From Flavobacterium anhuiense (GTDB lineage: Bacteria; Bacteroidota; Bacteroidia; Flavobacteriales; Flavobacteriaceae), in NCBI RefSeq assembly GCF_004151235.1, contig NZ_JUIV01000010.1, positions 1-64,000 of the forward strand: DNA of 64,000 bases, given 5' to 3'. A program made the position numbers and the translations under genes. The notes under the pieces are model-generated. The model was not told where the DNA came from. It did not search any database and worked only from the letters and a program-made list of their open reading frames with translations. Below are positions 8,911 through 62,176 of the stretch, piece by piece (position 1 is the first letter of the stretch; each line of letters starts with the position of its first letter).

Positions 8911-10670
8911 TTAATCCTTCAAGTCCAATCCAAATGTTGTTCGTAAAAGTTCAATATTTGGGTTGATTTCCAAGAAACGATTATAGCGATCCTGATTGTT
9001 ATAGCTTCGTTTCATTTCTACTTTTTCATTTACAATTACTTCGATAGTAATGTCGTGATTATGTAAATGTCCTTTTAAATGTCCCAATAAACCATTCATT
9101 TGGCTTTCAAATTCCAGTTTAGAACCTTCGTTTGGCAACTCATACGTAATTCTTGTTCCATCCAAAATAGGATCGTTGATCAACAAGATAGATTCCATGA
9201 TCTTTAATCCCTTTTGACCTAAACGTTCTGCATATTTGTTCCAATGAAGACGCATATCGGTTTCATTAAATTCTTCGGTAGGTAAAACAGAAGAAGGTTT
9301 AACGTACGATTTGCTGCTTTCCTCCATTTCTTTTTTCTTCCGAATACTGGCAAGAGAAAAGGCAGAAACTTTTGGAGCACCGTTTGTATCTGTTTTCGGA
9401 GTTTCAGGAGCCTGAACTTTTGGACTTTCGGCAGGAACTTGAACTGTATTTTGGGTATTTACAGATGCGGCATTATTTTTTTCTTCCGAATTTGGAATTT
9501 GGGATTTTGTATTTGAATCTTCCTTACTTGGACTTTGAACTTCAACTATAGAATAGCCTCCGTTTTTAAAGTAAACGGGCGGAATTATGAATTGCTCAAC
9601 TTTTTTTTTTCTCCATCAAAGTTGATAGAGGCCAATTGCATCAAGCATAATTCAACTAAAAGTCGTTGATTCTGACTTAATTTGTATTTTAAATCGCAGT
9701 CATTTGCAATATCAATTCCTTTAAGTAAAAACTCTTGAGAACATTTTTGAGATTGAACCGCATACATTTGTTGCGCCTGTTCACCAACTTCTAATAAAGC
9801 AATAGTTGAAGGTGTTTTGCTTACCAATAAATCTCTGAAATGTGAAGCCAAACCAGCAATAAAATGATGTCCGTCAAAACCTTTGGCCAAGATATCATTG
9901 TATGCTAGTAAAAGTTTTGGAATCTCATTTTCCAAAAGTAAATCAGTAATCGAAATATAAGTTTCGTAATCTAAAACGTTTAGGTTTTCGGTTACTGCCT
10001 GACGCGTCAAGTTTGTTCCGCAGTACGAAACTACACGGTCAAAAATAGACAAAGCATCACGCATTGCACCATCTGCTTTTTGAGCAATAATGTGCAGTGC
10101 ATCATCTTCAAAAACGATTCCTTGACTTTCAGCAACATCTGCCAAATGTTCTTTAGCATCTTTTACCGTAATTCTTTTGAAATCAAAAATTTGACAGCGA
10201 GATAAAATCGTTGGAAGAATTTTGTGTTTTTCTGTTGTTGCTAAAATGAAAATAGCATGTTTTGGCGGTTCTTCTAATGTTTTAAGAAAAGCATTAAAAG
10301 CAGCCGAAGACAACATGTGAACCTCGTCAATAATATATACTTTATACTGTCCAGTTTGTGGCGGGATTCTAACCTGATCGATAAGGTTACGAATATCATC
10401 AACCGAGTTGTTTGAAGCAGCATCTAACTCAAAAACGTTAAAAGCAAAATCTTCGGTAGGATCATCATATCCAGGCTGATTTATCTTTCGAGCCAAGATA
10501 CGAGCGCAAGTAGTTTTACCAACTCCACGCGGTCCTGTAAATAAAAGAGCAGACGCTAAGTGATTGGTTTCAATAGCATTCAACAAAGTGTTGGTAATGG
10601 CTTTTTGCCCCACAACATCCTTAAAGGTCTGCGGACGATATTTACGTGCCGATACTACAAATTGTTCCAT
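8911..10670 (-). CDS. dnaX: DNA polymerase III tau subunit (full length, by -1 frameshift)
   Basis: Two overlapping frames together encode a complete tau of 586 residues. Frame 0 covers residues 1-357 (10670 to about 9600) and ends in three lysine codons. The -1 frame continues without a stop from 9600 to 8911: a Q/P/S/N-rich linker, then the C-terminal domain (LHWNKYAERLGQKG...). The junction is a run of ten A on the coding strand. Tau would dimerise the replicase and bind helicase and alpha subunit, while the 0-frame product would be the shorter gamma. The joined reading is inferred from frame continuity and the slip heptamer. A sequencing error in the homopolymer is the main alternative. 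Confidence 0.75.
9585..10670 (-). CDS. dnaX: DNA polymerase III gamma subunit (0-frame product of dnaX)
   Basis: Product of 361 residues, the ATPase of the clamp loader. The N-terminus SARKYRPQTFKDVVGQ is typical. Walker A is GPRGVGKTTCARILA, Walker B is VYIIDEVHMLS, and the sensor 1 segment is LATTEKHKILPTILSRCQ. The usual four-cysteine zinc site between Walker A and B seems absent: the segment reads INQPGYDDPTEDFAFN. After the collar domain the frame ends abruptly with KKKLSNS and a stop at 9585, just past the A10 run, as expected for a frameshift-terminated gamma. Confidence 0.92.
   Translation of the reverse strand: MEQFVVSARKYRPQTFKDVVGQKAITNTLLNAIETNHLASALLFTGPRGVGKTTCARILARKINQPGYDDPTEDFAFNVFELDAASNNSVDDIRNLIDQVRIPPQTGQYKVYIIDEVHMLSSAAFNAFLKTLEEPPKHAIFILATTEKHKILPTILSRCQIFDFKRITVKDAKEHLADVAESQGIVFEDDALHIIAQKADGAMRDALSIFDRVVSYCGTNLTRQAVTENLNVLDYETYISITDLLLENEIPKLLLAYNDILAKGFDGHHFIAGLASHFRDLLVSKTPSTIALLEVGEQAQQMYAVQSQKCSQEFLLKGIDIANDCDLKYKLSQNQRLLVELCLMQLASINFDGEKKKLSNS
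9598..9612 (-). other. Programmed -1 frameshift (or slippage) site in dnaX
   Basis: The coding strand has exactly ten A between GGAG and GTTGAG (plus-strand T run 9601-9610). In frame 0 the last codons read GAA AAA AAA AAG TTG, so the E. coli dnaX slip heptamer A-AAA-AAG is present in the correct phase. A -1 slip makes the next codon GTT and opens 229 further codons. Loss of one A or gain of two by RNA polymerase slippage would give the same product. Confidence 0.7.
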
Positions 10671-60424: not shown

Positions 60425-61545
60425 AAGTGCTGCGTTTTATATTACAGAAAGAATTTCGACAAATCTTTAGAGATAAAACCATATTGGCCATGATGTTTTT
60501 TGTGCCGACAATACAGCTCATCATTTTACCGCTTGCCGCTAATTTTGAAGTAAAAAGTGTAAACATTGTTTATGTAGATCACGATCACAGTTCGTATTCA
60601 CAAAAATTAATCAATAAAATAGGCTCTTCGGGATACTTTCATATTGTAGGAGCTCCAGCATCGTATTGGGAAGGCATGAAGTTCATTGAAACGGGAGATG
60701 CCGATTTAATTTTAGAAGTTCCTTCTGGATTTGAACGAAACTTGGTAAGAGAAGGCAGCCAGAAAGTAAATATGGCTGCAGACGCCATTAACGGAACCAA
60801 ATCAAATATTGGAAATGCTTATTTGAATGTTGTGCTGGCAGATTTTAGTAATGATTTGGATATAAGGTTTAAAATGCCGCCACAATCGGCTTCTGTTTCG
60901 CCATCCTTAATTACTTTAAATAGCACAAATTGGTACAATCCGAGATCGGAATATAAATATTATATGGTTCCAGGAATTCTAGTTTTATTACTCACTTTAA
61001 TTGGTGGATTTATTACGGCATTAAATATTGTAAAAGAAAAAGAAATTGGTACAATTGAACAGATTAATGTAACGCCAATTCAGAAATGGCAATTTATTTT
61101 AGGAAAACTTATTCCTTTTTGGATTGTCGGAATGATTGTATTTACAGTTGGCCTTATTGTAATGTACTTGATTTATGGAATATTTCCACAAGGCAGTTTC
61201 TTAGTGTTGTATCTTTTTGCAGGAGTTTATCTGACTGCTTTATTAGGATTAGGGCTTTTGATTTCGACATTTGCCGATACACAATTGCAAGCTATGTTTA
61301 TTGCTTTTTTCTTTATGATGATTTTTATGCTGATGAGCGGTTTCTTTACCAGTACCGACAGCATGCCGAATTGGGCAAGAACCATTTCAGAATTTACACC
61401 TGTAACGCATTTTATAAAAGTGGTTCGGCTTATTGTTCTAAAAGGAAGCGGTCTGCAAGAAGTTGGAAGAGAGCTTTTATACTTATTTATTTTTGCTATT
61501 GTTTTGAATTCGTTGGCGATTTATAATTATAGAAAAACAAGTTAA
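60421..61545 (+). CDS. ABC-2 type permease, second (YbhR-like)
   Basis: Product of 374 residues with the same topology as the first: N-terminal helix (LAMMFFVPTIQLIILPLA), periplasmic domain, and five C-terminal helices, with the motif EKEIGTIEQINVTPIQKW. It is the last gene of the efflux operon and is followed by a long gap with repeats but no strong hairpin terminator. It would pair with the first permease to form the heterodimeric channel. Confidence 0.92.
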   Translation: MKVLRFILQKEFRQIFRDKTILAMMFFVPTIQLIILPLAANFEVKSVNIVYVDHDHSSYSQKLINKIGSSGYFHIVGAPASYWEGMKFIETGDADLILEVPSGFERNLVREGSQKVNMAADAINGTKSNIGNAYLNVVLADFSNDLDIRFKMPPQSASVSPSLITLNSTNWYNPRSEYKYYMVPGILVLLLTLIGGFITALNIVKEKEIGTIEQINVTPIQKWQFILGKLIPFWIVGMIVFTVGLIVMYLIYGIFPQGSFLVLYLFAGVYLTALLGLGLLISTFADTQLQAMFIAFFFMMIFMLMSGFFTSTDSMPNWARTISEFTPVTHFIKVVRLIVLKGSGLQEVGRELLYLFIFAIVLNSLAIYNYRKTS

Positions 61546-61740: not shown

Positions 61741-62176
61741 TAATAGTTTTAGTTTGGCTATGCTGGTATATCCCTATTTATTATATTTAATCCACAAAAT
61801 AGTAGAATGAGAAGGGGCTTCTGTTTCCTTTTGAAATTTAAATAAACGACATTAAAAGCTTATTTTCTTCGCTAATATACTTTGACTTAATTTCTCGTGT
61901 TTTATTTTTAAGATCTAAAAAAAAAAAGTAAAGTGTTGTTATATAAAGTGTTATAGGAAATGCAATAAAAAGTATTATGATAAAAAATATTGAAATAATA
62001 TTTTTTTGATTTTAATTTGTAATGAAAAAGCGGTAAATTTTAGTGTATATTGCTGTTTTTTAGTGTGTTATGTTTTTGTGTTTAAGTGTTGTTATATTGT
62101 AGTACGGAAAACCGTATTTAAATCATAATTAAAAAGACTACTTTTGCTTTTTTTAACATGGAAATAATTACATCTT
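61741..62176. other. AT-rich gap before the FN3 gene
   Basis: No gene found. It contains a short inverted repeat TACGG-aaaa-CCGTA (62103-62116) just upstream of a -7 box at 62139-62146, and otherwise very AT-rich sequence. Confidence 0.5.
62139..62146 (+). promoter_or_regulatory. Candidate -7 box of the FN3 protein gene
   Basis: TACTTTTG, identical to the rnpB -7 box, 30 bp before the ATG at 62177. No TTG at ideal spacing. Confidence 0.5.

Follow-up and report, generated by a model that had tools for sequence, protein, structure and literature searches.

Known dnaX and slippage systems

Two-ORF dnaX genes that can yield tau only by recoding are already in the literature. Antonov et al. 2013 (PMC3711429), in the accessible part of their text, list 17 such genes, nine of them with ten A, and suggest transcriptional realignment. 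The gene described here, from Flavobacterium anhuiense, is of that published kind: gamma lies in frame 0, tau follows after a -1 frameshift at the DNA level, a poly-A stretch marks the junction, and the arrangement is kept in the genus. Thermus thermophilus dnaX is similar in carrying an A-run (A9) with stops near it in the other frames, and a mixture of mRNAs is proposed here as for that gene; according to the available portion of PMC1088944, however, tau is the templated product in Thermus, whereas gamma is templated here. In Escherichia coli the same heptamer, A_AAA_AAG, occurs in the same phase, but the passages of PMC5009743 at hand describe a site with only six A and a strong downstream fold, where tau is in frame 0 and gamma arises by the shift. 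A preliminary description of the Flavobacterium locus had said that the phase matches that of the E. coli heptamer exactly; this holds for the phase, and run length and the protein read directly differ. The mxiE gene of Shigella flexneri also needs transcriptional slippage for its longer product, although it is an unrelated gene and its run is of U (PMC1088944, same portion).

Within the open-access literature, a search by titles and the starts of abstracts found no paper on dnaX slippage in Flavobacterium or Bacteroidota beyond the general papers cited, and the parts of the literature so covered held no description of a phylum-wide run or of a swap between relatives. Relatives that keep the run with an uninterrupted tau frame, and role swapping between the two products, are likewise not described in the accessible part of PMC3711429. 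The informative points about the present gene are the breadth of the run's conservation and the number of times that the two proteins have exchanged roles.

The dnaX junction and its two predicted products

The window analysed is the whole 64,000-nucleotide stretch of contig NZ_JUIV01000010.1, and its dnaX gene lies on the minus strand. Frame 0 (9585..10670, minus strand) encodes a gamma protein of 361 residues comprising the ATPase core, lid and domain III, as identified from the ORF, TIGR02397 and Pfam. At the junction the coding strand reads GAA AAA AAA AAG TTG AGC AAT TCA TAA. Its run of A is exactly ten long, is in phase 1 and lies at 9601..9610 (minus strand; T10 on the plus strand). The frame-0 stop TAA, the fifth codon past the last codon of the run, is at 9585..9587 (minus strand). 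A third-frame stop, TGA at 9596..9598 (minus strand), comes into frame upon addition of two A or loss of one. The tau-specific C-terminal part (8911..9600, minus strand) is open in the -1 frame. Recoding in silico with one added A joined the frames into a tau of 586 residues ending at 8911, and with two added A gave a product of 358 residues. The ten A, the slip-site phase A_AAA_AAG, the 361-residue gamma and the 586-residue tau after a slip had all been proposed from the raw sequence and hold; only the placement of the five codons GAA to TTG, previously given as 9598-9612, was one base off and is corrected to 9597-9611.

Both parts of the gene are genuine coding sequence. Gamma alone scored 381 bits against TIGR02397, the dnaX N-terminal model (cut-off 250), and 616.2 bits against NF011531, the NCBI (NCBIfam) full-length gamma/tau equivalog model, under its cut-off of 685; the joined 586-residue protein matched NF011531 end to end (residues 1-584) at 701.7 bits. 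With ATPase core and full-length family model both matched, the protein belongs to DnaX (Pol III gamma/tau). Pfam matches extend to residue 348, and none of the 19 listed Pfam families has its best stretch past that residue; the tau C-terminal domain is, however, covered by NCBIfam. The tau-specific part is under purifying selection: its median dN/dS was 0.13 for L001 against 40 of the 96 other tau-by-shift loci, namely those with dS between 0.1 and 1.5, and in the same 40 pairs differences fell mostly at the third position of the tau-frame codons (1509, 1140 and 3253 at positions 1, 2 and 3).

The genome is AT-rich, and matches to A10 are not rare in it (70 on the forward and 172 on the reverse strand, counting overlaps). 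Rarity was dropped as an argument for this reason, and the evidence lies in conservation. The window holds a second long run, A11 at 61917-61927, outside every listed ORF of at least 80 residues (the previous ORF ends at 61545).

Conservation within Flavobacterium

The search matched 388 of 398 genomes of the genus, the source genome included. Among the matches listed, the frame was closed after 362-424 codons (upstream extension included) in 149 of 150, the one open frame being the 609 codons of genome G035. More distant members of the genus were split in 35 of 36 cases (361-381), the remaining gene being broken over two contigs. Altogether dnaX was split in 184 of the 186 genus genomes examined among the matches listed, with one continuous and one undecided; 202 other matching genomes lie outside this set. 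Of 94 distinct genus loci, 90 have A10 in phase 1 with tau reached by +1, and the base after the run is G in 84 and T in 6, so the A_AAA_AAG phase occurs in 84 of the 94. The other four comprise two A9, one A12, and the G035 locus (A10, tau in frame 0). The comparison with related Flavobacterium genes that had been proposed as a check thus found run length and split frames both kept, which lends good support to the earlier proposal that gamma is read directly and tau requires slippage.

The G035 locus (L093) is the single case of tau in frame 0 among the genus genomes seen. It keeps A10 and has the frame-0 spacing after the run, and might be explained as an ancestral form, as a reversal or as a genome wrongly placed. 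The two A9 loci are L123 (G800) and L141 (Flavobacterium sp. YO12), one of them in a single-contig genome; here the shorter run reflects either a mistake in sequencing or true variation, with tau then needing -1 or +2.

The same run in relatives with an uninterrupted frame

In the other genera of the family, the frame is uninterrupted in 135 of the 148 matches listed (68 more genomes matched) and split in 13. Every one of the 165 family loci read had at least A9, with tau reached by +1 in 102, in frame 0 in 55 and in the other direction in 8. The frame-0 relatives typically read GAA AAA AAA AAT AGC at the junction, so that adding one A brings in TAG immediately, and adding two brings in TAA a few codons later. 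An uninterrupted frame in relatives that lack the A-run had been named in advance as the observation that would speak against slippage. No such relative was among these 165 loci, all 55 with tau in frame 0 having A9 or more; they do occur farther off in the phylum.

The distance from the run to the motif ATAATNCC separates the two classes. Among A10 phase-1 loci that carry the motif (39 loci without it were left out), it is 12, 9 or 15 nt in 86 of 86 tau-by-shift loci and 13, 10, 16 or 20 nt in 40 of 40 frame-0 loci. The indel therefore lies outside the run, which is unchanged, and Flavobacterium is one nucleotide shorter downstream of it. An alignment of three junction sequences serves as illustration only. 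This difference of one nucleotide just after the run would swap the templated and the slipped product, and in most other Flavobacteriaceae examined, where the same A10 sits in the tau frame, slippage would yield gamma.

A second family, f4, was split in 57 of the 57 matches listed. It is probably Weeksellaceae, judging by the similar junction of named Chryseobacterium and Halpernia loci. In the f4 loci read, the codon phase of the run differs from that in Flavobacterium, for which reason this split is probably an independent swap.

Distribution across the phylum and changes on the tree

From loci L001-L293, removal of three paralogues, 11 loci without a start motif (by script) and five duplicates left 274; because twenty were picked for odd frame length and many others as best matches, class frequencies among them are not those of a random sample. 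Near the same place, at codons 351-412, 250 of the 274 distinct loci have a run of A9-A14, exactly A10 in 213, and such runs of A9 or longer occur in 62 of 80 clusters at 80% identity. In other stretches of these dnaX genes, codons 1-325 held a longest A run of 5-6 in 231 of 274 loci and of 9 in 2, and the 600 nt past the run held one of 8 in 32, of 9 in 2 and of 10 in 1. Five run-bearing loci are of about 60% GC, with AAA in just 22 of 72 Lys codons. The run-bearing loci include genera with an uninterrupted tau frame, and comparison of these sequences indicates that the A-run is older than the genus Flavobacterium.

The 24 loci without A9 or longer include Bacteroidaceae, several other Bacteroidales and distant members of the phylum. 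In L169, L174, L176, L190, L215, L234 and L235 (several Bacteroidales and family f23) there is no A-run of nine or more at this place, and for most of them tau would be the sole product unless there is another route to gamma. In the Bacteroidaceae dnaX L180, the longest run near codon 370 is one of seven G, in place of the ten A of its relatives. Both other frames again meet a stop a short way on, and this may be a slippage site that was replaced.

A FastTree tree built from the N-terminal 330 residues requires a minimum of 29 changes in the state of tau (frame 0 or shifted) among the 250 run-bearing loci. For the 213 A10 loci the minimum is 19, whereas 30 shuffles of the labels gave a mean of 68. 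Tree error would inflate both minima.

Mechanism

Together these data make programmed transcriptional slippage quite probable as the means by which dnaX yields two proteins. RNA polymerase would slip on the ten A and produce a mixture of mRNAs. The templated A10 transcript would give gamma (361 residues), transcripts with A9 or A12 a near-identical gamma of 358 residues, and those with A11 or A8, which join the frames, tau of 586 residues or one residue less. Since the two non-tau frames close within a few codons, each slip product would be either gamma or tau. Over the 62 clusters the run stands in phase 1 in 28, phase 0 in 9 and phase 2 in 25, and the base after it may be G, C or T; with all three phases in use and that base variable, it is the polymer and not the heptamer that is conserved. 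The junction thus has the A or T run of at least nine, conserved as a polymer, that is looked for in transcriptional slippage. Both non-tau frames are closed within 5 codons in 210 of 250 loci, as against 11% of 7500 control positions. The third frame is irrelevant to a -1 ribosomal slip and matters only if slippage adds two bases or removes one, and it is closed within 5 codons in 20 of 22 clusters with tau by +1 (control 38%, p=6e-7) and within 10 codons in 30 of 37 tau-frame-0 clusters (control 52%, p=0.0005). Counting against slippage, one of the two frames shows no earlier closure than the control (p=0.13) in the three clusters where tau lies in the other direction. Ten loci need this opposite direction (-1 or +2 nt), eight of them with run lengths other than 10 and so open to assembly or homopolymer error; L226 (G659) is an A10 locus of this sort, and a second genome, G743, has the same search figures. 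Relatives with opposite shift directions at the same run are given as a sign of transcriptional slippage in the accessible part of PMC3711429.

A split created by homopolymer sequencing or assembly error, or by decay into a pseudogene, would leave only one real frame. Homopolymers are error-prone, and some relatives do show A9, A11, A12, A13 or A14. Yet the same A10 and the same split recur in 90 of 94 genus loci, the ATAATNCC spacing places the indel outside the run, and the tau part is under purifying selection. An artefact or pseudogene is hardly credible on these grounds; conservation led us to reject sequencing error, which is very unlikely to have caused the split. A more serious alternative is that every mRNA carries A10 and that tau is made by E. 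coli-like -1 programmed ribosomal frameshifting at A_AAA_AAG. The heptamer X_XXY_YYZ is in the correct phase in the window, and the base after the run is G in 84 of the 90 A10 tau-by-shift genus loci, but T in the other six, and phase and next base vary across the phylum clusters. The only Lys tRNAs found were three with UUU (55 matches, one not typed by ARAGORN, with 150 of 491 first-look candidates scored), and the E. coli mechanism needs tRNA-Lys UUU only (PMC5009743, passages at hand). A -1 ribosomal slip would also account for the +1 nt needed by 22 of the 25 shifted clusters; against this, the opposite direction is required in ten loci, the run has more A than the heptamer calls for, and the third frame is closed too.

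The stimulatory elements of a ribosomal shift were also sought. A Shine-Dalgarno-like GGAG abuts the run in the window, and the motif is present in 22 of 62 clusters. In E. coli the spacing between such a motif and the slip site is wider than that of the GGAG here. Strong downstream folds (z < -2) are slightly enriched (11 of 62 clusters against 7.5% of 186 controls, p about 0.006), but RNAalifold gave no consensus pair, and hence no consensus hairpin, in the 70 nt past the run for the 28 genus loci analysed, out of 54 thinned ones. The fold downstream of the run in the window has a z of -0.88, and 60 of 98 Flavobacterium-type loci, at 50 nt each, average -4.8 kcal/mol with a mean z of -0.29. 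The real E. coli site has a z of -0.22 and yet folds at -19.7 kcal/mol, far more strongly than the Flavobacterium-type mean; the shuffle z-score misses this known site and is thus a weak test. A conserved RNA stimulator was set aside given the absent consensus pair in the 28 genus loci and the weak folds, the weak cluster-wide excess of strong folds standing against that decision. Ribosomal frameshifting as the source of tau is accordingly unlikely. It is quite improbable, too, that both processes act, with RNA polymerase slipping and ribosomes also slipping on A-rich mRNA so as to set the ratio jointly. Run and in-phase heptamer do coexist in Flavobacterium, but outside that genus neither phase nor next base is kept, and nothing there requires a ribosomal part. 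The conserved polymer, the early stops, the loci of opposite direction (less firmly, given their run lengths) and the lack of a consensus pair in the 28 genus loci instead point to RNA-polymerase slippage, as in Thermus. The preliminary description had named that mechanism last, as an alternative; it fits better than the ribosomal shift, since run length is kept while phase, next base, Shine-Dalgarno-like motif and hairpin are not. Its stress on an in-phase E. coli heptamer stands for this gene and does not extend to relatives, in which phase and last base vary; no consensus hairpin accompanies the heptamer in the 28 genus loci, and ten A exceed what it needs.

Implications for Bacteroidota

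We lean towards a broader reading, in which dnaX across much of Bacteroidota carries, as an ancestral device, a run of about ten A for transcriptional slippage. It would fix the supply of both clamp-loader proteins so robustly that templated and slipped product have swapped many times (at least 19 for the A10 loci), Flavobacterium representing one swap fixed in nearly the whole genus. One practical consequence is that a single-frame gene finder would report a short DnaX and miss tau in Flavobacterium and in the family that seems to hold Chryseobacterium. If the ancestral reading is true, slipped (+1) and templated transcripts would be made in comparable amounts, because swaps are easy only when the two products are similar in amount, a point made for dnaX in general in the available passages of PMC5009743. 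The repeated swap would then be a natural experiment in which both arrangements must supply workable amounts of gamma and tau. Its prediction is RNA-polymerase slippage at a high and similar level, measurable by simple cDNA sequencing.
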